DNA of 64,000 nucleotides from Phytoseiulus persimilis (Eukaryota > Arthropoda > Arachnida > Mesostigmata > Phytoseiidae). The notes beneath the pieces were generated by a model that worked only from the letters and a program-made list of their open reading frames with translations, was not told the origin of the DNA and searched no databases. Position numbers and translations under genes: made by a program. Of the stretch, positions 25,252-64,000 are shown one piece after another. Every line of letters starts with the position of its first letter. Position 1 is the first letter of the stretch. The stretch is from positions 15,434,745-15,498,744 of the forward strand of contig CM075102.1 in assembly GCA_037576195.1 (NCBI GenBank). Direction: 5' to 3'.

Positions 25252-28200
25252 ATGGAGGACGACAGTCGAAGATCCCGCAGGACGCGGGTCCAACCAAGCT
25301 GGGTGAGTTCGGTTTAGCTATGTCTCTTCTCAAGAGACAGCAACGCCGTTTCCGGCGTGTCAACGCCACAGAGATCTATAATGGAGGATTCGGTCGATTG
25401 AACGGTGGATGGATCTGACGGAATCGTGGAAGTAATAATGCAGCAGTCAAACAGCGCTCTCTGACATCTCTGCCGTCTCGCGGTGCCAGAGTATTTGATT
25501 TAACAATTCTGTTCGATCTCCGATGCAGGTTCAGGCGAACGGTCATGTTCTCTCGGAGAGTGCGGCACTGAAGAGGGCACTCAAACAAAGTTTAATCGAG
25601 AGCAAGAAAGAAACTCCGAAGAAACCTGAGCCCGAACTCGACTCGCCCACGAGGAGACGACGTAAAACCGAACCACCCGTAGGCTCCCCTGCCGCGACCG
25701 GGGGAGCTTGCGGGAACGCCGCGACAACAAGCGGCACTACCAGAAGAACTGACCGCCTGATTTCGCCAGCCAAAGACTTCAGAAACAGAACGAACGACAC
25801 TGCCGAAAAACGCTCAACTGGAACGAAACGTAAAGAAACGTCGCGAACACCCAACCCCGCGGCGGACCCTCGACCGCCAAGAGATAAACGCATGAAGTTC
25901 CGTCGAGACTTCCTAGAAGACACAATGCGGGAGATCAATAAAAGCCCGCGTAAAAAGTACTGCGCGCAACGGAAATTCGCCGTGAATTGCAACGGCGGGT
26001 ACTCGTCATCACCGATGAACACGCCGATCAAAGCTTTCATGTCTCCTGGGCCTTCGAACCCGCCTCCACCATTGATACTCCCTGCAGCGGCCACGCAGGC
26101 CAGCTCGCCTTTGAAACCCACTTGCAAAACCGAAGATTTTTTGACTTTTCTCTGCTTGAGAGGTACGTCCCTCTGTCCCGACGATCTCAAATTCCTCGAG
26201 AACCCACCCAGTTACGAGCCCAAGACAGAGGACAAAACGAGCATCCTGGCCAAGACGAAACGTAACCTCCAAGGTAAACTTTCCGAAGTGGTTGATGAAA
26301 CTCGACCTCCGCGCAGAATACGTGATTCTACCGAAAGCTTGGACTCGGCCAACAACCGAAAAGATCTTGTCAACCACGTCGCCAAGTTGATTTCTGCCAA
26401 ATACAAGAAGAGTATGAACGGAATATCTCAGAGACTCTCCGCTCGACAGTCGAGCAGTGATAGTCGGAGCTCGACCTCCACTTCGAGGGCCGAACGTTTG
26501 AAGCTCCGCCAGAAGAAGGTCGCTTTGATCGAGAAAGAAAACAAGCGGAGATCTCGAACCGCCAACGAAAACGGTGATCCTCGAGAGAATCTCACGCATA
26601 GTGTGGCTCAACGACGAACGGCGTTGATCAGATCTCAGAGTCGTCGAACTCAGCAGAATTCTAGACGAACCAACTTGGTCGCGCGGAACCTGGTTAGAAA
26701 GGCCAAGTCGAATGGAACCGCCACGAGGTCGCCAGGTAGAGACGCAGAAGAGGACGAGAGAAACGCAGACGGTCAGAGCGAAGAGGACGACGACGATGAG
26801 GAGAGGAGAGCGACTCGAAGTTTGGGGCCTATTGCTGAGGTCGCGTTGCCTATATGGCCTCAGTATAAGCTCAAACAGTATGAACTGTCGCTCTCCAAGA
26901 AGACCGGCAAACATCGGGATTTGAAGACGCCGAAAAGAATTGAAAAGCGCCGCTCAGAAAGGATCAGTAGCTCGATTGATTGCCCCGGTAGCTCGCCGCG
27001 AAAAAGCGTACGACAACGAGCGGGCAGGCCCGATGTTGCAGAAAGTGTGGATTCAAATGGTAAATAGCTTCCAACGATTATTCTATCGCGGCGATGTGTT
27101 CATGCAAACAAAAAAAACAGTCAAATCGCTCAAGTTTCAATATTTATTCCGTTTCCAATGCTGCAATAAATTATTTTGGTTTCGCTGGTTGCGGACTTCG
27201 GTTGATCCGTTGGCATTTCGTCTCGGAGCGTTCCAAAATTATCGCTTCCGATCCGTCTTTCGTGACATTTCGACTGTCACATCCCATGTGCACATTTCGA
27301 GCAAAGTAACGCATACGACAATACGTGAGAGCGAATCTGTCAAGCATTCCGCCACACCGATTCGTGCCTTCATTGCTATAACGATCAAACGGACCACTCA
27401 TCTGAAAAATAGTTACGATGAATTTTTCAGAGAGAATGGGTTCGATATTCCTCAACAGTTCGCCCGAAGAAGAGAAAGCCTTGAATGGTTTGCTCTCATC
27501 GCAGTTCGAGGGTGAGTTCGGAGGTCTTTCAACCTTGACTCCATCCTCGTCCGTCCAGGACACACCGATCAAGGCCACACTGAACTTCATGACCGATTGC
27601 GGCAGTCCAAGCGGCAGCGTCATCTCCAGGACGAGTGACACCTCTTTCAGAAAAGTGAGTGTCAAGTACAGCTCTTTCTGAACTCTCATTTTCTCCGGGA
27701 TGAGAAGCTGAGACAACGAACGTTCTGGAATTATCGATTCGATCTCTTACATTCCAGTCGACCAGCTCCGTTGACTTGTCAACCCCGGGTTCGAAAGTGA
27801 CGAAAAATCGCAAGAGCCAAGTCAGATGGTCGATAGGTGAACCTGGTGCACCACCGGTAACGAAATGTGAAATGTCTACGTGTCTGGTTTTCGAACCCAC
27901 CGCCGAGGAATTCCAGGATCCCCTGAAATACATCAGAGATACCATGGCAGCCATTGACAAGCCAAACCACACAATGTTCAAGATTGTCACTCCAAGAATC
28001 AAAGACTGCAAGAGCACTGCCAAGTCGGATTGCCGATTATCGAACGATATGAGATTTTTAGCTTATAATCAATTCCTACACAAATTATGGCGCCGCTGGG
28101 GACCATCCACGCTACAGTATGCTTGTCTGCGGAAAGCAGTCAAAATCTCGGAAGGGAAGGAGACCAGTGAGTTTTCTGGAGCTTTTGTCGGGTAGTAAAT

Positions 28201-30427
28201 GGATTATATCGACTTGTGAGATTCATGATACTCTCGCTAGTTCCGAATCGAGAGATCCGCTGATCGATTGTGTCCCACGCAAGGTTTTCTTCCACGAACC
28301 GTATCTCATTCTAGGTGGCGAAGACGATGTCGAATCAGTTGACGATAAGATTTTGCACAAGAGAGGCTGTCCTCTCATCGGAGGAGTGGAAGTTGATGTT
28401 GGCCATTTATACAACACCGTTCAAAACTTCGGAGGTATTCAGCAAGTGATGGAAAAGAAGAAGTGGGTTCGCGTCGCTGATACGATGCGAATCCCCCGGA
28501 TGGCACACGATAGAGTGGCTCGTCTCGACGAAGCCTACATGAGATACTGTCTACCTCTGGAAGTCATGAGCGAACAGGAGAAGGAGGAAGTTTTCAAGAA
28601 GGTAGGGATCTCCCCTTGAATTCCCAATCGATCCACGGACACCGGTTTGTCCCAGTATCGGGGAATCATCACAGATTCTGAACCTCGAATTTCGCCATTC
28701 AGGTGAGGGAGGATCACGAACGACGGCGCACGCAGGAGACTTGGGACGAAAACGAAACATTAGAGTGCGTCTGGCCGGGTCGCAACATGACTCTAGCTGT
28801 ATTCGAACGCGTTGCGAGGAACATTTACACCATGTGGTACAAAGAAGATTCTGGAGTTCTCTCTGAAGATGTGGAGCATGATTTCTGGGCAATCGTGGAA
28901 GCCCGTAAGAGACACGTTGTGGTGAACTGTGGAAACATTGACACCTTGGCCTATGGCTGTGGCTTTCCTCAACCACAATGCGCCGTTGCCGAACAAAGGA
29001 AGAAGAAACCCGAGGACAGTCCGACGAAAAGTGAGAAAGTCATCCCTTGGAATACCAAAATCCTCGCTCAACACCCTGACAATATCCTCCGATGGTTGGG
29101 CAACGTCTCGGGGGTGACAACTCCGACTCTTCATGTCAGTATGCTCTTCACTGCGTTACCATGGTACCGTGACCCGCACAATGTCAACTGGCTGGACTAC
29201 CTCCATAGTGGTGAGTGGAAACCGTCAGTAGTCGGATGAGCCATTCGGAAGTGTCTACCCTAAGATCTCTCTCTCTAACCGCAGACATATTCTCAATTCT
29301 AGGTGCGCCACGGATCTGGTATTCTGTCCCAGCGAATCAGGCCGATCGCTTCCATGAGGTTGTCTCAAAGCTTGCCCCTCACGTCCACCAGAGCGACGTC
29401 GGCATTCCGTCAGACGCTTGCCTGATACCTCCGCAAATGCTCCTGGATCGCGGCGTCCAGTTGGAGAGGATTGAACAGAAGTCCGGGGAGATCATGGTCA
29501 TACTCGACGGATGTTACAGCTCTAACGTCAGTTGTGGCTTCAGCATATCTGAGAGCGTCTACTTCACGTGGAAAGATTGGCTCGCCGAAAGCTGGCAAAG
29601 GCATGCGTTGGAGATTTGATTCAAAGTTTCGATATCCTGAATACTCCCAGATACGAAAACGAGAGTAGCTTTTCAACCTCAACTCATCTCCCACAGGTTC
29701 AACATATTACGAGAGAACAGTGAGCCGCCGACGTTTTGCTTGGAGCAACTGATAGTCAATATGGCCATAGCAGGAGCGACCCCGGGTGGCAAAATGGAGC
29801 ATGTAGTTCTCCAGGACGTGAAAGAGATTTTGAATCGAATCACCGAAGAGCTCGGGAACAGCTGGGGCGCCCTGGAAAAAGATGGCGTACCTATGGAACG
29901 GAAAGAACACAATAGCTTTCCCATGGAGTGTTCGTCCTGTCGCATGCTTTGTGGATTAGCTGCTGTGAGTGGTCTTCCACGTTGCCCTCCCGCATGCACC
30001 GTGAATTACCGCGGGTTAGCACTCTCTTTCGAGTTCTAAACCTAATGTTGCCGCAACACCTCCATTGCAGGCCGTGAGTCAGGATTCGACAGAGCCAGGA
30101 GAGATATTTTGCCTCCCGGACGCGAATCAAACGCTACTTTCTCAAGCCGCTGCGTCCGCGACGCAGAAGAATAACAAAAAACAGAGGATCACTACAGGAA
30201 TTGCAAAGCCTGGGAACAAATTCAAGATCGTTTATTGTTACAACATGGTGGGTGTACGGCGAATCCCGACAAAGATGCGAAACCCAAACGATGGAGCTGT
30301 CATCATAAATGCAGGCTCATTCTGTCGCGGTGACTGTTTGCGGAAATCTGTTTCAAACCCAGCGTTTCGTTTTCAGGAGGAACTGCGGACAATTTTGAAA
30401 AAAGTTCAACAAACACTCAACGAATGA
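25252..30427 (+). CDS. Jarid2: JARID2/Jumonji, PRC2 accessory protein
   Basis: Ten coding exons join in phase: 25252-25302, 25529-27059, 27431-27654, 27758-28166, 28315-28601, 28703-29210, 29303-29606, 29697-29964, 30071-30247 and 30377-30427. They encode about 1,269 residues (human JARID2 has 1,246). Visible in order: a UIM-like helix with core ALKQSLIE (about 27-41); the AQRKFA motif with Lys166, matching the EED-binding methyl-lysine of vertebrate JARID2; the conserved TEDFLTFLCLRG block (218-229); a long basic linker; JmjN (about 644-684); ARID (about 700-830); JmjC (about 960-1,100); and a partly eroded C5HC2 finger. In JmjC the iron-binding HxE is replaced by WYR and the distal His by Ser, so the protein should lack demethylase activity, as in the family. 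It acts in the nucleus, recruiting PRC2 to chromatin. The exon 7 end is uncertain: three nearby donors (after 29592, 29600 or 29606) all give phase 2, and only the last is GT. The last intron is 3n and stop-free, but splicing it improves the family alignment. The ATG directly follows an acceptor, so a non-coding upstream exon is likely. Confidence 0.95.
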
Positions 30428-30831: not shown

Positions 30832-31364
30832 TCTCGAATGGGTGCATACCAGAGAAATGGTCCATTTTATCACTGACAATCAGCCGTCAGCAACGAAGGG
30901 ACTGATGGAGAACGGATGAAATTCATCTATGATGTTTGATGTTAAATTCCCTGAGAATTCACTTCCTACTTTTCTCATGCTCAATTATCTTGGCAGAAAA
31001 TTCATGAACTATGAGTTATCTTTATCGGTGGACATCCCGATTTCCGCGTGGTACATTAGTACCGTTCCACATTTTCGGCGATGGTAGTGAAATACCAACA
31101 AGGCTCTGAACTGAGTTCAGCGGAAGGATTCCCGAGGCTAGAGTTCCGTAGTTCTGGTCCGACCTCGACGGTTCTTTAGTATTTTTCATGGCACCTTCGG
31201 CGATTTCGGTGGGCCGTGAGCGCTCTTACTCACTCGGAGCATCCATTGATCCCAGACAGGGCCCAAGTTCGAGGTCTGTGTCGAACCATGTGTTTCTCCG
31301 TGGAAGCCTGAACTTGTCCGTTCCATATTCGATGATTTATCCTACTGATCAGTGCAACTAGAGA
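30832..31364. other. Jarid2-ASCC2 intergenic spacer
   Basis: About 530 bp with no supported gene. It must hold the 3' cleavage site of Jarid2 and the promoter and 5' UTR of the ASCC2 gene. I see no TATA box at a suitable distance. Confidence 0.5.
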
Positions 31365-33533
31365 ATGGCGACCGCCGACTGCGGTTCGAAGGATGAGTTG
31401 GAAGGATTGCCGGTGGACAAAGCCTCGACGACAGTGCTCCGTGGTGGAGAACCCCTCAAAGTGCCGGCTATTTCTAAGGAGCACTTGCCGCAAAATCTGT
31501 GCTACTGGCACTACAAACCACCGTCATCGATCATCTCGTCGAGGGAGGATCGTTTAGCAGTTATAGACGGTGATGTTTCCGTTGCAGAAAAATATGAATC
31601 CGAGATCGCGGCCTATTGTCAGTCGATGCAGTTCCTAGTGATGGACCTCAACGAGATTCTACAGGCCGATCACCACAAGTTCTGGTCACACGTTGTGCAT
31701 GATCACGAATTTCGCCTGACTCTCAGAAATTATCTCCGCATGGCTCCGAGATGGTTCGATCCCCCGATGCTTTGGGCCAACGCAACTCTAGAATCTTTGA
31801 GCGAAGAACTTTTCGAGCTTGTCTTGAAGCTCATCATGAGGATGTCCACCTCTCGCGAATCAAGGTCCGACCATATGACTGTCGAGGTCTTCGCCGAATT
31901 TCTCGTCGAATACGTATACGACTCCGCTATGATTATCGATGTGTGCACTCTGTATGGTTTCACCCACGACACACCGAGAAAACCCATAGTGGCGGAAATG
32001 CTCAGAAATGTTTGCGCGAAACAGCCGAAGTTGCTCGTGCAACTCAGCGACGCCGCAGACAGTTTCACGGGGATGATTGCGCTGCTGAAAGATCTCTGCT
32101 CATTTACCCGCGACGTTGAAGTCACGACAATCGCGATGTGTGTTGCAGCGATGTCACTGAAAACCTTGGATGATGAGCAACTCTTCAAAACCTGTTTGAG
32201 CGCCACCGAGACCGCCGTGTCCTTGCTTCTGCTGCTGAAGAACGCCCCGACGACGATCTTGACGAGATACTCAACCGTGATAGACTCGCTGCCGGACTTA
32301 TTCGAGTCGGTTTTCCTTCCTCTGATCGAAGAGATCGAACGCCGCCAGGACAGCATAACGACCGGTTTCGGCGACGTGCTCAAAACTATGTTGCTCAAGG
32401 GTATGACCTGTATTATAGATGTTTACCGCTACTACGTTGAAGAGGAGTGCATGAACAAATTAACGCCTTCGTTGGCGAATGCCGGTGCTATACCTGTCCT
32501 CGAGAAATATTACGCGATCTTCATGCAAGCCGTCCCTGAGAAAATGTTCATGCTGGCCTACAATTCCCTCAACCCCCTCGAGAAGGACTTCGACGAGCTG
32601 CGGAAACACCCCGCCACCCGCGAGTACATGGACGAATCGCATCTTCAATACATCCTGAAGAGTCTGCAGGGTCCTGTTCCAGAAACCGCTGTTCGAGAGG
32701 AGAATGTTTATGGTCGAACTGTGGAGTACGCTGCTGCTAGCGGTGCTTGTGAAGGTGCCGCTGGCGGAGTAAGCGAGGAGGTGAGCAGTGTTCTCGCCAT
32801 CTTCCCTGATCTCCGCCTGGAATTTGTTGAAAAATGTCTCGAATTCTACAAGGGTAACGTTGACGAAGTGGTTTCGGCGATCATGGATAACAACACCCAT
32901 CCAGAGCTTGAACAATTCAAAACTTCCCCCGCGCCACCGAACTCGCCCACTGGAGCGTCCGAGGCCCCTCTTGCTGGCGCAACGGTGCACATCGGCAAGA
33001 AGAATAAGGTTACCAAAGATTTGCTGGACGACCGCGCTGAAAAATTCAACCTGAGGAGGATCGTCCTGCAGTACACTGACGTCGTCGATGAAGTCGTTGT
33101 TCAGGCGACCGACAAACTCTATGACGATGAGTACGACGATACGTATGATTCCAACGACATCGGCATACCCGAAAGGTCGACTGGAGACTGCGACAGGGCT
33201 TTCGAGACTCCCAGGATACTCGCCGGAGCCAATGAACGGCGCAAGAAGCACTGGGAGCAAGACCAGCCCGGAACGGAGCTGGACGAAGAAGGCGCTCGCA
33301 GGAAACGACTGGACTTCTGTGAGAACCCTGAGGAAGCTCGAGCGCGTCGAGAACAGCGGTACCAGGACAGGATGGCGAGCAGAGGTAAACAACCGCCTCC
33401 GCAAAGAGACGTTGTTGGAGCTGCTCGAGGACAAGGTCAGAGTGGGGACGTACTGCGCAACCGAGCCATGAAGGAACGCAACAAAGGTGGGAATCGCAGA
33501 GCGCAGGCTGACCGAAAACGCAAAGAGTTCTAA
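31365..33533 (+). CDS. ASCC2: ASCC2, activating signal cointegrator 1 complex subunit 2
   Basis: A single uninterrupted 722-codon frame (human ASCC2 is about 757). The N-terminal two-thirds is the helical region that binds ASCC3, including the early LPQNLCYWHYKPP block. A CUE ubiquitin-binding domain follows at about 473-512 (SSVLAIFPDLRLEFVEKCLE, with the family's FPD-like turn). The tail is acidic (around the DDEYDDTYDS segment) and then strongly basic, ending in KRKEF, as in relatives. ASCC2 reads K63-linked ubiquitin and recruits the ASCC3-ALKBH3 alkylation-repair machinery; it also works in ribosome-quality control on collided ribosomes. The ATG at 31365 precedes the conserved N-terminus. 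The lack of introns is notable because neighbouring genes have many; no poly(A) tail or target duplication marks it as a retrocopy, and the frame is intact. Confidence 0.93.
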   Translation: MATADCGSKDELEGLPVDKASTTVLRGGEPLKVPAISKEHLPQNLCYWHYKPPSSIISSREDRLAVIDGDVSVAEKYESEIAAYCQSMQFLVMDLNEILQADHHKFWSHVVHDHEFRLTLRNYLRMAPRWFDPPMLWANATLESLSEELFELVLKLIMRMSTSRESRSDHMTVEVFAEFLVEYVYDSAMIIDVCTLYGFTHDTPRKPIVAEMLRNVCAKQPKLLVQLSDAADSFTGMIALLKDLCSFTRDVEVTTIAMCVAAMSLKTLDDEQLFKTCLSATETAVSLLLLLKNAPTTILTRYSTVIDSLPDLFESVFLPLIEEIERRQDSITTGFGDVLKTMLLKGMTCIIDVYRYYVEEECMNKLTPSLANAGAIPVLEKYYAIFMQAVPEKMFMLAYNSLNPLEKDFDELRKHPATREYMDESHLQYILKSLQGPVPETAVREENVYGRTVEYAAASGACEGAAGGVSEEVSSVLAIFPDLRLEFVEKCLEFYKGNVDEVVSAIMDNNTHPELEQFKTSPAPPNSPTGASEAPLAGATVHIGKKNKVTKDLLDDRAEKFNLRRIVLQYTDVVDEVVVQATDKLYDDEYDDTYDSNDIGIPERSTGDCDRAFETPRILAGANERRKKHWEQDQPGTELDEEGARRKRLDFCENPEEARARREQRYQDRMASRGKQPPPQRDVVGAARGQGQSGDVLRNRAMKERNKGGNRRAQADRKRKEF

Positions 33534-48830: not shown

Positions 48831-51800
48831 CTAAATGGCGTTCGCGTCCCGTTCCGAACAAGATCTTGTTCGAGCGCGCGCCTCCTTGTGAGAATCACTG
48901 CTGGTGATGCTTTGAATCTCGGCGTCAGTCTGCGGAACGACGAGAAAAATGTTCGACTTGGAGTTGTCCAGGGAAGTTAGCGCCACTACTGCGCCTACTC
49001 CTCCGCAGCAGCTGCCCCCTCCTCCTCCACCTCCTTGGTCTCTACAGAATCGATTGATGTGACCTTCAGATCCACTCAGTTGAGCTGAAACCGAGCGCAT
49101 AGCTTTTGAGGGAGGATAGAAAGATGTTCGAAGAGGAGGACATGTAGAGATCGTCAGGTAGAAAGTCCGCCACTCACCATTACAGCAGAGCGTTCCCGTT
49201 GATCTACTGAGAGTAGAACTTTGACAGAAAGGCTGTCCGATGCGGTTGTGATGGCACATAATACTTTCTTTGGTGTTTTTACTTGGTTTGAATAGAGCAA
49301 TGTACACTTTTGGAACGAACAGACAGAATATCTGAACGGTTCCTGAGAGATTCAACAGAAACGACAACGTCACTGCCCGTATGGCGTTGTTCGTTGAGAG
49401 CACAAACAGAGGCAGAAATGCGAGCCAGACAACGCATGTCGTATAGTTTGTGAAGGTCAAGTAGCGCGCTTCGTTGAAGCCATCCGGACATTTACGAGTT
49501 TTGAACGCATAGACAGTGCAGAAACCTAAGAATAGCAAATTTTCAGAGGGGATTTGCCTACAGGGAGAACTCGGACTAAGTCAGCAAAGCAGAAAGCCCG
49601 CGGCTGCTTCGGATATTCTCATATGCTCTACTCACACATCAGAATGAAGGGGTACACGAGTCCGATGAGGTATTTATGATCGTCAGATCTGGCGCAAATC
49701 AAGACACTCTCTTCTCGGGTGGGATAAATATTCGTCGCATCCGGTGGATCGTACATCAGCCACAGAACGTTCACTATCACCTCGACACTTACCTTAAAGA
49801 GAAAGTCGCAATTGGACGATGAAAATGTGGAAACTATGTTCGGTAGGAACACGGTAAACTTTTCCTTCGTGGTGGAACAATGATATTCAGCCTCATGAGA
49901 GGTCGAACAGGGTAGAACAGATAGAAGTTCAAATCCCTGGTGAAATGTACTCACCAACAACGCCGTTATTAACAGTTGAGAACGAGGCGATGTGTATCGG
50001 ATCTTGTGGGAACGCCCTTTGGTTCCGTGAGCAAAGATTCTCGCTATACGCGAGGTCTTCGTGACTATGGCGGCGTAGCACGTTGTGTAGCAGAACCCTG
50101 CGCAGAATCATGGCTCGGATCACATCAGACGTTTGAAGGAACGTAGTGGAAAGAAACCATTGCTCTTTGATACTTTCTGGGTCCACATGGACGAGGAGTT
50201 ATACAGTCACATTCACTCACCAAGGAAGAATCTAGTGAGACCACAAGTTACAGCTGTCGGCTTCGCAACAATTACGAATGTTAATGAGAACGATAGAAAG
50301 ATTCCGAACAAGAGCAAGTAGGACAGTTCACGTCCCGAAGCCTTGATAATCGGAGTGTCCGAGAATCGACGGAAGACCAAGGAAATGTAAATGACGACCA
50401 GCATCCCTGGAAAACGTTCCGGAGATTATTCTCGCACACGATCTCTCATTTCCCTTCGAGCGTGTGCCGCATGTAGAAGCAGAGGACAACCGGCCACCTC
50501 TAGAGACGCCTCTTGTGGAGCGCCGAAACAAGCACTGAGAAGGAATATGTAAAACTGGTCAAGCAGTACCAGCCCGAAGCTATGAACATTGTACGAGCAT
50601 GTGAGACCCATGAGAGCCCAGTGACTCTCATCGGGGTGAAGAGCAACGAGAATAGTTTCCTTTACCAATGGAAGCGAATGAAATCGACCCGATAGCCCAT
50701 GGATTGTTGTAGTCGAGGAAGACCTCTTGAATCTTCTCGCACCGAGTTTTAGACTCGTTCGGGAGATAACCCAGTTCACATTCGGCACAATGATTCTCAT
50801 CCCGCAGGAACTGATACTGACTGCAGTTGCTGCAGATCCAACAGCACGTGTCGCCCTCGAGTTTGAGCATCACCTGCAAACGTCACACATGAAGTTCGTC
50901 ATCTGTGTGGGCCGATGCGCTTCGCCCTCAGCGCGGATCGAACATTGAGTCGATTCCCTAACCTCGATTCCTACGTCGAGCCGGAACCTACCTGATCACT
51001 GCGACATTCCTCGGAGCAATATGACCGCGGATAACTAGGGCTATCATGTTTGAATTTCATTTCTTCGAGCTTTATTTCGAGGTGAGATTCCCCATCATCG
51101 CTGGCTGAAACAGAGAGTTCGGAATCAGTGCATTCCTCTCCACAGAATCATTTCTACGAGCCCAGGACGGGAGAGTTGGGGAGCCCAGATCCAAAACGCC
51201 GTGACTCCATAATTCTCAAAGTCGAGTTTTCAGTCGAAAATTCATCAAGCCAATTTCCGGCAACGTTTTTTTTGCGTTTTTTTGAGAAACGCAGGAAGTG
51301 GAGTTGTCACGCTTCGTATTCGGGCTCTTCGATTGCTCTCGGCAGCGGCAACAAGAGCAACAATGACATCATTTAGTATCTCGGGAGGTCTTGACGTCGG
51401 TCCGTGGTCACGAAACGCTTAGCTTAGGGCCCGTTCCGCGACAACTTTCCCATTAGGGGATTACTCAGAGCTCAACAGATGAATTACTCACGATCGTAGG
51501 AGCCGACCGGCTTCCACACATACGAATGTTTGCCGTTCTTGCCTCTCACCTTCTGAAAATTGATTATCGTGTACCTGGAAATCATGGAAACTTCGTCATC
51601 TTTCTTCGCTCAGAATGCGCTCTGAAACCTTCCTTGTTGGATACCGGGAGCCAAGATCAATGCCCGTCCCACAATGAAGAGCCGTTACTCGAGGTATTTA
51701 TTGCAGTTGATGATATTCACCTGGGTGGGGCATCTCCAGACGGCAGGAAGCGGAATGGTTTCCGTGATTCATCTTTGAAGGTTACATTTTCCAAAGCCCC

Positions 51801-54129
51801 CTTCAGTTCCGAACCATTAACGATTCTCTCCAGCATTTTCGGACACAGGCCAGTTTGGTTGCTACACCTGGAAGAGGTTTGGTTCGGGTCGCTGATAAGA
51901 ATGGCCCTCTCCAACTCTGAAAACATTCCCATCGTCACGCAGACTCACCATTTACGCTGGGTGTTATGCAGTGCATACGCGAAAGCGTAGGCTGCATCTC
52001 TAACGAAATGAAGTCCCTTGAATTCATCTGTCAAGATCGACGCGTTCGTAGCGCACGGAGTGGTGAAATTTCGATTGAATGGAGTGTCAGGAAAACCCTG
52101 GAGGCGACATTTCCAGAATTCTTCCCAATACTCAGCAAACCAGGGATTCTCTGTATGCTCCGATGGGTTAAGCTTTCTGCGACCAAAGAAAAATCCGCTC
52201 CAATTCAAACTCCCGAATATTTTGAGGCAGAGGGGCTGCCCGCCGAAGAGTACAACTACATATCGTCCTGCTGCGCTACCGACATCAAAGGGCAACAGAA
52301 CTTTGAAAGGCGTGTCGAGAGCGACAACCCACCTGAAGTAGTTTCCGAAACCAGCCAGAACTCTCTGCTTGGGAAGAACATTGATAGCTCCTTCGACGAC
52401 TTGACGTTCTCCTTCCGTTTCGAACAGCGTTTTCAAACCTCCCCAAGCATCGCTGCCGATCCACACAAACCTTCTAGAAGCACCCTTGCGATAAGCTGCC
52501 CTCATCAACTTCTTAGCAACTTGTTTATCCGAGAATAGAATCACCACTGAAACGGCAGACCCCAAGTCAGTTAGTTCGTGAAATGGATTCTCGAGGAACA
52601 GTTCAAACAGAGGCCTCCCGGTTATTCGATTCGAGTTCAGATCTCACTGGAATACTCAGGGCAGATCTGATCGAAATGTGAAATATCTTATTTGCGAAGC
52701 AGTCATAGACCATCTGGAATATGGAGCCGAGCAAACCTCTTGCGTTGCTTTTGTTCATGAGGTTCTGTATAACTGTGTCGTATTTGGTGTCGTTGACTTC
52801 CGCATTTATCGACTGAGGATTTGAGAAACATATGTTGTACCGAGCGGCTACTTCTTGTAGTTTCTCATATCCCCGGTTGCCGTAGTCGGTATCGGAATAA
52901 ACAATTGAGACGTAAGTCCACCGGAACTGTCTGCAACAGATGTCTCCGTTATACTCAATGATCACTCCGAGGAGCTCCATCATCGGACTGGCTCCATTCA
53001 GGATGGGAGCCCGCTGAACTGGAAGCGATAAGCCGAAGCGTTTCCGGTCCGCCGTGGCGTTGGCTTCTATATCTAGCTGGTCGAGGCATGGCACATAGAA
53101 TTATTATTTCCAAACTGACATCTGATCTCACTTCAGTATCTCCATGATGGCGAGCACTTGGTTCGTGTCAGATGGTACCGTCCGAAAAAAATATTCGAAC
53201 CTGCCTTTGTTGGACAACGTGGGACTCGTCGATTGGTAGCTGATCTAGTAAAGAAGCGTAAAGAGTCAAAGTACAGATTCACAGTCCTAGTGAAGATTGA
53301 GGACCGTAGAGGTATGCGAGGAGAGAGCGATCGGTTTTCCGCTCACCTGGGGAACCCTAAACAGGCGCAACAGATTGGCGAGCTGAATAGAAACTGAACT
53401 TGATTGACCTCCGATAACGCCGACAACTCGATCGAACGTGCCATTTCTATACGTAGGTGCTGAGCCGTCGGAACAAGTGAATTCGTTTTCAGAGTCATGT
53501 ACGTTGTTCCGCGCGATGAAACCTGGAAGATCGAGGTTTTTACAGCTTCGAGGACGATTATTCTTCCCGCACCTCCATCGCGCTCGGGAAATGCAGAGGA
53601 ATAAGGGAGTGAAGAGGGAGAATGAGCACAAATGATCACCTTTGATGAAATCTAATGACTGCTCTAAGGCGTAGACACTGTTGTCGCATGAATCCAACGC
53701 TATAACCCCGAGTCGAATGCCTGGCAGGATTGAAGGGTCTCCATTAATTTTTTTGATCGTGTACAACAACGCCTCAAGTTGCTGGACTCCTTCATCCTGG
53801 AAGAGAAATCAACCATGGTCTCGTGATTGTTCTCCGGGCTCCCTCATCTCACGAAGAAGAATCATCTGACTTATGCTCTGTGCTCAGAGGTGAGCTTCGG
53901 GTTTCGACATCCACTAGATATCAGTCGCTCACTATACCTCGATTTGTATTCTCCCGCACTCGTATGACGAATTTGCCTCGTGGATGGGAAAAAGAGCACC
54001 AAGCATGATGTCTCCGGGAAGGTTCGCCGATCTTTGGAGGGGCCATTTTATAATGTCAGAGCCACGCGACAACGTAAATGTGACTTGGAAGACGACCACC
54101 CACCACACGGAAACTGTTCGAAAGAACAT
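48831..54129 (-). CDS. class C GPCR, group II mGluR-like with altered ligand site (mXR-like)
   Basis: Sixteen exons chain in phase: 54129-53938, 53796-53640, 53522-53347, 53244-53132, 52930-52737, 52546-52333, 52176-51949, 51867-51721, 51574-51492, 51104-50992, 50873-50666, 50406-50221, 50097-49955, 49792-49636, 49525-49178 and about 49084-48831. They encode about 970 residues. A signal peptide (MFFRTVSVWWVVVF) leads into the Venus-flytrap domain, then the cysteine-rich domain (CCWICSNCSQYQF, CAECELGYLP), seven membrane segments and a C-tail. The SRIARIF loop and FKTRKCPDGFNEARY are intact, so G-protein coupling is expected. Head-group residues corresponding to mGluR1 S165, T188, D208, Y236 and D318 are kept (S158/159, T181, D201, Y229, D310). 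The two basic residues that grip the side-chain carboxylate are replaced: Q70 where mGluR1 has R78, and T454 at the K409 position. Insect mXR receptors show this pattern. The last intron follows CCNG, as in mammalian GRM2/3, but the tail lacks the usual STTSSL end; its acceptor (49,084 or 49,102) is uncertain. Confidence 0.9.
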
Positions 54130-60033: not shown

Positions 60034-61789
60034 CTAGTAGTTTCCAGCCTCCACAGGTGTATAATCTTCCCCTTCAAATGTTAATTCAAAGTATGCTTGA
60101 TCGAAATGATGTACTCGAACAAAACCGTCCTCTCCGCCAGATGCGTAGCTCTTGCCGTCAGGATGGAACGCTACCGAATTGATGGGACCGAAATGATCCT
60201 TGACTCTGCCGAACTCCTCCTCAAATATCAAGTGGTAGAAGCGAGCGTCGAATTTACCCTGCTTCGTCGAAGTCACTGTCACTTCTCGTGCTTCTTGACC
60301 TCCTCCGAGGAGCACGTGATTGAAGATCGGCGAGATCGCGGCCGAGTTCACTGGCCGCTCGGTCGGGAATTTTTTGAGTTCTTCTAGTGTGTCACTGTCG
60401 AATACGATCGCGGAGTTATCCTTGGATGCTGTGATGACCATGGTGCGGTCCTTGTTGTACTGCATGTCGCTGATCTCCCCCCGATGGGCCTTGACTCGTT
60501 GTATTTTCTCAAGATTATTTCTAAGGTCCCAGATGCACACTGATCCGTCTTCGTGTCCCGTGAGGATACCATCGTCGAGATTCCACCACAATGCGGAGGT
60601 GACTTTGCCCCTCTGAGCCGACGTACAAACCGAGGTTTTCATCATGTTCCCATGGCCGGCAACTTGTTGGGGATCGTTGAAGTCGATGATTTTTATCTCA
60701 CAATCCTTCGACATCGTGGTGTCTGTCGAGTACATGGCATACCGTCCGGAGTATGAGAAGCCACATGTTCGCATCGACGTGATGTTTTCGATCGTGCTGA
60801 TGCATTCGCCTGCGCGAAACGGAAGGGGTTAATCCAGGGTGGTCCTGGGAGCGAACGATGACCACATCGCTCTGAATTTCGAACGGGAGCCCTCCAAGGA
60901 GCATGAACCATTGCGGAGTTTCTTACCGGTTTCCAGGTCCCAGAGTTTGAGGTTTCCGTCACCACCACCAGTGATAATTCGCGTCGAGTCCCAGTTGACG
61001 TCGATGCACCACACGGTACCATTGTGGCCGATCAAATTCCCCAAGCGTTCTCCGTTCGCGGAGAAGAAGATGTTCGGCTTGTTGTCTTTGGACGCTGTGA
61101 GGATCAAATCTCCCTCCCGGTTATACTTGATTTGGGTGATGGCCCTTTCGTGCCCCTGAAGCAGCAATGGACGCTGAAAACAAAATTGATTCGGTGTTAC
61201 AGCAGATCCCGCGTCGCATGGTTCAACCCACCCGCCGGCTCCCAGCCGAATTTTGTAATGTTCTCTCTGAGTCACCGGTTTAAGTTGGAATATTGAGTCG
61301 GAATGTTCGCTTATACCGGATTGAGACGCTAAAGCAACAGTCGAGGGCACCAAAACAAGCGAACGTCAGTGTCACAATCGTGGTCCCGGTGGAATCCTCT
61401 GACAGGAAGAGAAAGAAGTCCAGCAGGGCAGAGGACGAGTATGGTCCTCCGACAAATTCCACCACCTTCCGTCTTGAGCATCAGTCTTCGGTCTGGGACA
61501 GGGACTACTCGAACCCAATGCGACTGGAAATATCTTCACTCACTCGGTCGTGATAAAGTTCGTTTCCCACCTGTCGCGAAGCTTGGGACACGGACTCGAC
61601 GGGAGTCAATGCGGGATATTGCTCCAACCAAGTGGGCAGCCCCGAGGGTTGGAACCTCGTGGAATATCGAATCTTATTGAGAACAAACGGATTGCATATG
61701 GACAGACCGGCACCGGTGGCATGCTTTCCATCGTCTTACTCAGACCCCGATTGACGAACTCACTGTTCCCAAGAGGTTTTCTTTACCAT
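60034..61789 (-). CDS. eIF3i: eIF3 subunit I (TRIP-1), WD40 protein
   Basis: Exons: 61789-61787 (only the ATG), 61173-60927 and 60809-60034, for 341 residues (human 325). The ATG stands in a good context (CCAAAATGG) and is followed at once by donor GTAAAG; the next exon opens [18 protein letters not shown], which matches the family start MKPILLQGHERSITQIKYN. WD-type repeats are clear: [14 protein letters not shown] with LKLWDLETG, then [17 protein letters not shown], then [20 protein letters not shown]. The family block [12 protein letters not shown] leads to LGGGQEA and [20 protein letters not shown], with [12 protein letters not shown] at the end. eIF3i sits in the cytosolic eIF3 complex, bound to eIF3b and eIF3g, and helps scanning and 40S recruitment. 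The second junction is phase 1. The gene shares an upstream region with the divergent YME1L gene. Confidence 0.95.
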
Positions 61790-61935: not shown

Positions 61936-62489
61936 CGAAGGCGGATGCGCTCCGGCATGGTCAAGACTCGGAAGCTGAAGTCGTTTCGAGTTCAGTCAAG
62001 CTCCTCGCGTCAATCGAGGACCGGAGATCACGAGTGTTGATGCGGGGCTCACCGTGGACTTATCGGTGAGAATCCCGAGGCCGTGTATGCTGGGAGATTC
62101 TGAAGTCTCTACGCGCGTTTCCGGGTGCAGGACGAAGGCAACCGACCGAGAGTCGGAATCGAATCAGCAGATGGCCTTTTGGAGCGATGGGATCTCAGTT
62201 CGCCCTGATCTGCAGCGAGAAACATCGATAGGCCGTTCAGAAGGTTCCAGGAAACCAAACGAAAACTTCAGGAGCAGGGGGTAGGAATTCCCATCCCGCG
62301 TTTCCGATACGGACTCAGGTCGTGTGCGACCTCCGCTTAAAGAGCGCCCGACGATGGTGTTTTGGTTGCTCAAAACTGAGAGGCACTTTCTCACGACACA
62401 CGAACGGGAATCATACGACCGTGTGTGACTCCCGACAGAATTCCCATATTGTGGTCTGGTGCCTGTGTAGTCAGGACATTGTATCGGAT
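61936..62489 (+). other. YME1L 5' UTR or 5' intron region
   Basis: About 550 bp between the YY1-type motif and the YME1L start codon. It contains a donor-like TCG|GTGAGA at 62,067 and acceptor-like sites near 62,438 and 62,470, so a 5' UTR intron is possible. No conserved coding sequence was seen. Confidence 0.4.
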
Positions 62490-64000
62490 ATGTTCGCCAC
62501 GCAATCGGCTCTGCTGCAGACACAGACTATCGCGCCGGTCTCTCACCCCTACCGTACTTCGAAACGGGTGCGCAACCATGAAATCTCTGCGGAATCCCTC
62601 AGCTCACAGAATACCTTACGATGGTTCAGCCACAGCCGGCTGTGTTCAGCACTTCTGCTGAACCGCGCGGAGGTCCAGAGAGCGCTCTTCCACACACCGG
62701 CATTCCGCGAAGAACTCACCGTCCAAAACTCGTGTGCATGGCCGGCAACGTTCGACACTAAACGTATGGGTCTCTTCGGAAGTGCGTATTTGAGGAACAC
62801 AGTCAGAGAAATCGCCCGTGGTGGAGTGATTTCGAGAGGCTTCAAAACGAAAGCCTCCAAAGCTCATGACACCTTCAGTCATGGCGGTTCTTCCAAGAAC
62901 GACGAGCTGCTAGTCAAGGTTGATGAGGGGACCCCGTTACGGGTATTAAATAAGCGTCGTTTCTTTGAAATGTTCGACGATAAAAACATCTCACCGGAAG
63001 AAAAAATGCGGATGACATACGCGTTCGCTGAAGGCTACCGAGCTTCGGACGGATCTTCGAGGAGAGGAACGGATCTCAGGTCGAGTATCTATCGAGTTCT
63101 TGAGATATTAGCCTTTGGATTGATCATGTATCTCATTTTCGTTGCATGGTCAGCAAAGGGATTCTCGATACTCGGAGGGGCGAGCGAAATCTCACCGGAA
63201 GAAATCGACGTGACCTTTGAGGACGTCATGGGTGTGGAGGAGGCCAAACAAGAACTGCAAGAGATCGTAGAGTTTCTGAAGGATCCGAAGAAGTTCTCCC
63301 ATTTGGGAGGAAGACTCCCGAAGGGCGCTCTCCTGGTGGGTCCTCCGGGTACGGGGAAGACGCTCCTGGCTCGGGCGGTCGCAGGCGAAGCCGGTGTTCC
63401 GTTTTTCCAGGCATCGGGATCAGAGTTCGATGAAATGCTCGTGGGTCAGGGCGCGCGACGCGTGCGGGATTTGTTCAATACCGCCAAGGATCGAGCACCG
63501 TGCGTCATCTTCATCGACGAGATCGATTCCGTCGGTGGGAAACGATCCAATTCAACGCTGCATCCGTACGCCAATCAAACAATCAACCAGCTCCTGTCAG
63601 AGATGGACGGTTTTCACCAGAACGAAGGTGTCATCGTTCTCGGCGCAACGAATCGACGGGACGATTTGGACCGTGCTCTGTTGCGACCCGGTCGCTTCGA
63701 CGTCGAGATACAGGTGCCAAGGCCTGATGTCGCTGGTCGGAGAAGCCTCCTGGACTACTACGTGTCCAAGGTGAAGGTTGATCAGGAAGTCGATCTGGAC
63801 TACCTGGCGCGTGGAACCACCGGTTTCACTGGGGCTGATATCGAGAACATGGTGAACCAGGCCGCGCTGAAAGCTGCCATCGATGAGAAGGGTTCAGTCA
63901 CACAAGCGTACCTCGAGAATGCGAGAGACAAAATCCTCATGGGGCCTGAGCAAAGGAGTCGGATACCAGACCACGAAGACAACCTGATCACCGCCTATCA
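62490..64000 (+). CDS. YME1L1: YME1L mitochondrial i-AAA protease (3' end outside window)
   Basis: An open frame of 503 codons runs to the window edge. The start [20 protein letters not shown] parallels the human YME1L start (MFSLSSTVQPQVTVPLSH), which fixes the ATG. A basic, Ser-rich presequence region is followed by a conserved SRGFKT block and a transmembrane segment (about 203-222, [17 protein letters not shown]). The AAA+ domain then shows Walker A GPPGTGKT (284-291), Walker [10 protein letters not shown] (D343/E344) and the second region of homology with arginine fingers in [10 protein letters not shown]. The M41 zinc-protease domain, with HExxH, should follow just past 64,000, since the frame stops at NLITAY. 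YME1L hexamers in the inner membrane face the intermembrane space and degrade misfolded and regulatory proteins such as OPA1 and PRELID1. Odd point: pore loop 1 reads MLVGQGA where relatives have MFVGVGA, so Leu317 replaces the conserved aromatic. No intron was found in the visible part. Confidence 0.94.

Follow-up and report, generated by a model that had tools for sequence, protein, structure and literature searches.

Class IV of the metabotropic glutamate receptors (mGluRs), described by Ramos-Vicente et al. in 2018, is found in all bilaterian phyla studied except vertebrates, with two genes in amphioxus; Arg78 and Lys409, both critical for glutamate binding, are replaced by non-polar or acidic residues in all of its members, and the backbone contacts are conserved (PMC6307864; this and the other papers given by PMC number are cited for excerpts of their text). 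In the fly receptor DmXR (mangetout) the alpha-group contacts are kept and two gamma-carboxyl residues are changed; the receptor does not respond to glutamate and, in transfected cells, is activated by L-canavanine, which does not activate the T176A receptor (Mitri et al. 2009, PMC2695807). Gi/o coupling of DmXR has been inferred from residues of its loops, and Lee and colleagues are cited as having reported normal avoidance in flies without DmXR (PMC3646046). Here we analyse a receptor gene on the minus strand (54129–48831) of a 64,000-nucleotide stretch of the genome of the mite Phytoseiulus persimilis (assembly GCA_037576195.1, contig CM075102.1, positions 15,434,745 to 15,498,744; hereafter the window). 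The window gene is a real, open-framed gene for a class C G protein-coupled receptor (GPCR), and it probably encodes a full-length receptor of the mXR type (class IV), the second and more divergent member found in its genome, beside a gene that we call XR.

An earlier reading of the same DNA, made from the letters alone (the sequence-only reading), held that an arachnid member would widen the range of the mXR class; given the distribution of class IV over the bilaterian phyla studied (PMC6307864), it does not. The description of mXR as insect-only, repeated in 2024 (PMC10815649), was discarded as well, since PMC6307864 contradicts it and so does the crustacean table in PMC8256442; in the excerpt cited, this table has one Mangetout in the 'lateralis' column and none for Carcinus maenas. 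The kind of receptor is already known; what is mildly new is no more than an additional copy whose distal pocket has been reshaped in a different way. By 'lateralis' we take the crustacean table to mean the land crab Gecarcinus lateralis. Our literature search for arthropod class IV metabotropic glutamate receptors found PMC6307864 alone, the main text of which makes no mention of chelicerat-, Ixodes, Limulus, spider, mite, Daphnia or Tribolium; the search for chelicerate mGluR found a spider paper whose excerpt names mGluR merely in an exclusion list (PMC7128011).

A class C receptor gene and its relatives in the same genome

The model of the window gene, joined by hand at GT/AG borders, comprises 15 exons (Table 1), 3006 bases and 1001 codons with one stop, the terminal one; its 14 introns are short (81–387 bases), and the G+C content of the window is 52%. 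A spliced aligner guided solely by the letters of human mGluR3 agreed with the hand model at both borders of 11 of the 15 exons and at the inner border of exons 1 and 15; exons 9 and 10 each differ at one border, and exon 10 comes in two pieces. Pfam models matched by an 889-residue query, that is, the protein without most of its C-terminal tail, are ANF_receptor (246 bits), NCD3G (41.9 bits, cut-off 38.9) and 7tm_3 (229 bits), in this order and above cut-off, which gives the class C architecture of a Venus-flytrap domain, a nine-cysteine domain and a seven-transmembrane (7TM) domain. The tail beyond approximately residue 880, including a run of glycines, is without homology support.

A profile search with PF00003 over the genome (181 Mb, 127 contigs) yielded at least 20 matches at at least nine places, one of which is the window. 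When the window protein was compared by tblastn with the eight other places, four gave strong matches, two weak ones and two none, and the four strong places were modelled as the genes A (mGluRA-like), XR, P9 and P14. In the model of A, three short exons (of 34, 14 and 8 bases) are doubtful, and a stretch ahead of the FYWIASDGW motif is mis-spliced, tblastn giving another reading there; for the R78 and K409 regions the model and tblastn are in agreement. XR, the more canonical-looking of the two divergent genes, would be of class IV type as judged by its loss of both basic contacts. Scans with XR exons, one exon each, of a bacterial-genome and a viral collection returned 197 and 10 pattern matches, respectively, and no relative among them.

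A ligand pocket changed at its distal end

The R78 and K409 columns were read from MAFFT alignments made with seven settings, each with the same ten rows: the window gene, XR, A, P9, P14, GRM1–4 and CaSR. The residues named by the sequence-only reading as holding the amino-acid head group are all kept: Ser158, Thr181, Asp201, Tyr229 and Asp310 stand in the slots of mGluR1 S165, T188, D208, Y236 and D318 (5/5). The list of five is that reading's own, and within it we take D208, Y236 and D318 to be contacts of the amino-acid backbone. S165 and T188 are backed by PMC5372683, which in the excerpt cited has R78, S164, S165, S186 and T188 acting in glutamate binding. XR too has 5/5 alpha contacts, with Ala for R78, Gln for K409 and Phe in the S186 slot, and A and P9 keep all seven positions. 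Across the 122 extracellular columns that are invariant in six glutamate-type receptors (GRM1–4, A and P9) the window gene keeps 94, from which the chance of losing the two named contacts is about 0.05 and that of keeping the five alpha contacts about 0.26; the residue pattern alone is thus modest evidence.

Both side-chain-carboxylate contacts had been read as lost, and the part of this claim that concerns R78 stands, with Gln70 at that position in all seven alignments. For K409 the residue proposed earlier, Thr454 (ENVTF), is ruled out: K409 of rat mGluR1 is the lysine of VQDSK-MGFVINA. We located it on chain 1ewk_A as index 377 + 32, taking the chain to begin at residue 33, and with K409 so fixed the GIQR arginine of human mGluR1 lands at 78. 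The K409 column holds Gly403 in 7/7 MAFFT alignments (EFK-GLHFVRDA), with Lys402 directly before it. Pairwise comparisons are split: phmmer sets Gly403 opposite the lysine of mGluR2, a gap opposite that of mGluR4 and Lys402 opposite that of mGluR3, where Gly403 becomes an insertion, while blastp with seven lysine-bearing partners puts Gly403 there in three (GRM2, P9, P14), a gap in four (A, GRM1, GRM3, GRM4) and Lys402 in none. That the lysine is simply kept as Lys402 is weakened by the seven multiple alignments and by phmmer's alignment with mGluR2. The K409 lysine would be either lost or displaced by one residue, which makes the second loss likely, not certain. An alignment bringing back both basic residues did not appear: the arginine is restored in none of the seven MAFFT alignments, and the lysine only by phmmer against mGluR3. 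Where glutamate-type receptors have Arg78 and Lys409 together, the window gene has Gln70, and Gly403 or a displaced lysine.

The distal slots around these two contacts are changed as well. Asp102 occupies the W110 slot, where XR also has Asp and Trp, Ser or Asn stands in each of the other eight rows, and Glu66 occupies the Y74 slot; neither slot is acidic in GRM1–4, A and P9, in which these two slots and that of Gln70 are basic, aromatic or small. With Gln70, Asp102 and Glu66 so placed, a neutral or cationic ligand side chain would be likelier than an acidic one. Y74 and W110 are positions of the glutamate pocket near the distal carboxylate.

It is quite improbable, in our judgement, that the receptor has retained the binding of glutamate or of some other acidic amino acid, with the displaced Lys402 replacing K409 and Gln70 hydrogen-bonding the carboxylate. 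Such binding would suit the five retained alpha contacts, phmmer's pairing of Lys402 with the mGluR3 lysine and the stretch around Lys402 from the conserved Cys to the conserved Phe, which by alignment count lacks two to three of the residues that GRM1 and GRM3 have there, so that its path could differ. It sits badly with Gly403 in the K409 slot of all seven multiple alignments and of phmmer's mGluR2 alignment, and acidic residues such as Asp102 and Glu66, in slots presumed to lie near the distal carboxylate, would disfavour an anion. DmXR, in which two gamma-carboxyl contacts are changed, is not activated by glutamate (PMC2695807).

For a receptor of the mXR type, we propose that an amino acid or a close analogue, other than glutamate, binds in the flytrap cleft, as the pocket residues suggest; binding would close the flytrap and turn the 7TM dimer, and signalling would probably run through Gi/o. 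Intracellular loops i2 and i3 (TKTSRIARIF, SPRSQ, TRKCP) are closer to those of GRM2/3 than to those of GRM1, loop i2 being one residue longer than in GRM2/3.

Placement beside XR and competing placements

The main tree was built from the same ten rows, and the approximately unbiased (AU) test p values given here are uncorrected. The window gene joins XR with support of 92/91, and the deepest forks are weak (52/52, 52/52 and 55/73). Forcing the window gene together with A, GRM2/3, A plus GRM2/3 or GRM4 costs 18–28 log units, with AU p values of 0.0133 for GRM2/3, 0.0148 for the genome's own mGluRA, 0.0227 for group II (A with GRM2/3) and 0.0239 for GRM4; a single clade of the window gene, XR and GRM4 is not rejected (p 0.351). 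Without CaSR and P14 the pair receives 100/98, and the AU p values are 0.0122 for group II, 0.0026 for mGluRA and 0.0024 for GRM4. Five variants of this smaller set, one stripped of 18 pocket columns and four of some reference rows, give 98–100/97–99. The extracellular part alone yields 97/97, with a long-branch warning, and the 7TM part alone 88/92.

The two genes are also alike in what they have lost. Of the 122 invariant columns XR keeps 94, as the window gene does, P14 keeps 86 and CaSR 77, the losses being partly gaps. The window gene and XR thus each lose 28 of 122, and both lose 15 where 6.4 would be expected (p 4e-5, a value that fast columns can inflate). At seven of the columns the replacement is identical: Y198F, A334V, M420F, H422Y, V467F, Y494W and W500Y. 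The tie between the window gene and XR is supported by these comparisons, and its deeper placement is not settled by these rows. The phylogeny called for by the sequence-only reading, which had the protein as mXR-type and not glutamate-type, supports that reading in part: among the own-genome genes, GRM1–4 and CaSR, the window gene joins XR and the glutamate-type groupings are rejected as long as XR is present (AU p 0.0024–0.024 against mGluRA, GRM2/3, GRM4 and group II), and without XR it is unplaced. Strong grouping with glutamate receptors, which would have told against that reading, was not seen in these trees.

Several observations weigh against a class IV assignment. In the set lacking XR and P14, the window gene stands beside group II, at 61/64, and without XR none of the four other groupings tested is rejected (AU p 0.206–0.365); XR without the window gene is also unplaced, at 43/20 beside class I. 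Overall identity is 41.5% to GRM3 and 41.3% to XR, extracellular identity 41.1% and 39.3%, respectively, and only in the 7TM part is XR the closer (45.4% vs 42.3%). An exact intron match also exists with P9 (one of the window gene's 14), and three introns are common to XR and the mGluRA-like A. At the pocket, phmmer's alignment with mGluR3 retains a lysine, and Lys402, which adjoins the K409 slot, may yet be able to contact a carboxylate; Glu66 is not diagnostic, since P14, which keeps R78 and K409, likewise bears a Glu in the Y74 slot; and both Gln70 and the Gln of XR at K409 are polar neutral, where PMC6307864 reports non-polar or acidic residues for all class IV proteins.

These points bear above all on the alternative that the window gene belongs, as a divergent member, to group II (mGluRA/mGluR2/3-type) or elsewhere in classes I–III, lost Arg78 independently and is tied to XR only by the fast evolution of both. 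Its top match among solved structures is mGluR3 (664 bits), with none named class IV or mXR among the best 60 of 111 matches; GRM3 has the highest identity in the tree set (42%); the free tree lacking XR sets it beside group II; the extracellular tree carries the warning that long branches meet; and exact intron matches are divided, one with XR and one with P9. With XR present, however, placements with group II, mGluRA or GRM4 are rejected (AU p 0.0133–0.0239 with ten rows, GRM2/3 included, and 0.0024–0.0122 without CaSR and P14), the grouping with XR survives the removal of CaSR and P14, that of the pocket columns and all four row drop-outs, and the two genes have seven identical replacements at otherwise invariant columns. 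We consider this alternative unlikely.

Intron positions had been considered as support for the pairing of the window gene with XR and were dropped, the matches being mixed. The exact match with XR, DFIK|G in phase 1, occurs in just these two of the five own-genome genes, the other 13 introns have no exact counterpart in XR, none of the 14 matches A exactly, and two further ones come within two to four columns of introns that have the same phase in other genes. This mixture lowered our confidence in the class IV reading and raised that in the group II alternative. The strong differences in intron position among the mGluR paralogues of this genome point to heavy intron turnover.

The end branch of the window gene is longer than that of XR (1.15 vs 0.80 in the ten-row tree), as might be expected if it were a lineage-specific duplicate of a canonical mXR that on its own has ceased to bind a ligand and works within a heterodimer, as a partner or as a decoy. 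The presence of two mXR-type genes in one genome would fit this, as would the Leu in the R323 slot, though GRM2 likewise has Leu there. The five alpha contacts and the 7TM core, kept over an open frame of 1001 codons, suggest instead that ligand binding is still under constraint, and we hold a mere subunit role to be very unlikely.

Returning to the mXR-type reading, the class IV assignment runs only through XR and through published descriptions of class IV and insect mXR proteins. By description, the window gene resembles class IV (Ramos-Vicente et al. 2018, PMC6307864) in its changed Arg78 slot, its changed or displaced Lys409 slot, its conserved backbone contacts, its whole architecture and, when XR is present, its separation from classes I–III; it differs in having Lys402 beside the K409 slot and in being the second, more divergent copy known from its genome, although amphioxus has two copies as well. 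With DmXR (Mitri et al. 2009, PMC2695807) it shares the equivalent of Thr-176 (Thr181), changed side-chain-carboxylate contacts and Gi/o-like loops, although the likelier direct counterpart of DmXR in this genome would be XR. With group II (GRM2, GRM3 and the genome's own A) it has in common the fold, the head-group contacts, loops i2 and i3 and 39–42% identity; unlike the window gene, these receptors keep Arg78 and Lys409, and a joint grouping is rejected with XR in the tree, not without it. XR is like the window gene in having both basic contacts changed (K409 likely), Asp in the W110 slot, the seven identical replacements and one intron, and unlike it in having Ala and Gln in place of Gln and Gly, in sharing 41% identity and in 13 introns without exact counterpart.

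Feature coordinates, neighbouring genes and the meaning of two copies

Coordinates are collected in Table 1. P9 and P14 are two class I (GRM1-like) mGluR genes that occupy one strand of a stretch of about 100 kb and group together at 96/98; the long branch of P14 (1.64) and its Cys at the S165 slot suggest a ligand site changed in another way. Among the neighbours of the window gene, the AAA ATPase presumably resembles the mitochondrial i-AAA protease.

Table 1. Positions of the receptor gene's exons and pocket codons and of other genes in the window, and of the four related genes modelled elsewhere in the genome (locations with the prefix C2)
Feature	Location	Strand	Basis or remark
Exon 1: start codon, signal-peptide-like N-terminus, Venus-flytrap start	53938..54129	-	hand model
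Exon 2: Glu66 and Gln70 (mGluR1 Y74, R78 slots), Asp102 (W110 slot)	53640..53796	-	hand model, alignments
Gln70 codon (mGluR1 R78 position)	53779..53781	-	counted from exon coordinates
Exon 3: Ser158 (S165 slot)	53347..53522	-	hand model, alignment
Exon 4: Thr181 and Asp201 (T188, D208 slots)	53132..53244	-	hand model, alignment
Exon 5: Tyr229 (Y236 slot)	52737..52930	-	hand model, alignment
Exon 6: Asp310 (D318 slot)	52333..52546	-	hand model, alignment
Exon 7: Lys402-Gly403, the true K409 region	51949..52176	-	hand model, alignments
Lys402 codon (52019-52017) and Gly403 codon (52016-52014)	52014..52019	-	counted from exon coordinates and sequence
Exon 8: holds Thr454, not the K409 column	51721..51867	-	hand model, alignment
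Exon 9	51492..51574	-	hand model; spliced aligner takes donor 4 bases further
Exon 10: leads into cysteine-rich domain; least certain exon	50992..51104	-	split in aligner
Exon 11: remainder of nine-cysteine domain, start of transmembrane helix (TM) 1	50666..50873	-	hand model, aligner, Pfam
Exon 12: TM1-TM3 region	50221..50406	-	hand model, aligner, Pfam
Exon 13: TM3-TM4 region and intracellular loop 2	49955..50097	-	hand model, aligner, Pfam
Exon 14: TM4-TM5 region	49636..49792	-	hand model, aligner, Pfam
Exon 15: TM5 end to TM7, intracellular loop 3, C-terminal tail with Gly run, stop	48831..49525	-	hand model; splice at 49178 an alternative
A (mGluRA-like gene)	C2:37983062-38010375		groups with GRM2/3 (98/98); R78 and K409 kept
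XR	C2:36242580-36275443		GIQALE (R78 to Ala), EHQLQFV (K409 to Gln), 5/5 alpha contacts
P9	C2:1730192-1774915		groups with GRM1; R78 and K409 kept
P14	C2:1677515-1684486		groups with GRM1; R78 and K409 kept; Cys at S165 slot
Open frame with ARID DNA-binding domain	28062..28619	+	Pfam
Open frame of 723 codons with CUE domain	31362..33533	+	Pfam
EIF3I homologue	60034..61365	-	Pfam EIF3I at 333 bits (60034-60828)
AAA ATPase with AAA lid	62232..63998	+	runs off the window

A possible, if doubtful, history is that an arthropod, perhaps a mite, duplicated a class IV receptor, with XR keeping the canonical non-glutamate pocket and the distal pocket of the window copy (Glu66, Gln70, Asp102, Gln179 and Gly403) being reshaped once more, so as to give a polar, acidic site that would suit another amino acid, probably a basic one; a small repertoire of chemoreceptors would so have been made out of mGluRs. 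The window gene is in our view better annotated as mXR-like (class IV) than as a glutamate receptor. L-canavanine, acting on the fly receptor, is the sole class IV ligand met in the papers cited, and there is disagreement about its part in taste. A genome with two such divergent copies, which differ at slots presumed to govern ligand choice, would offer a natural comparison in the search for the native ligand of these receptors.

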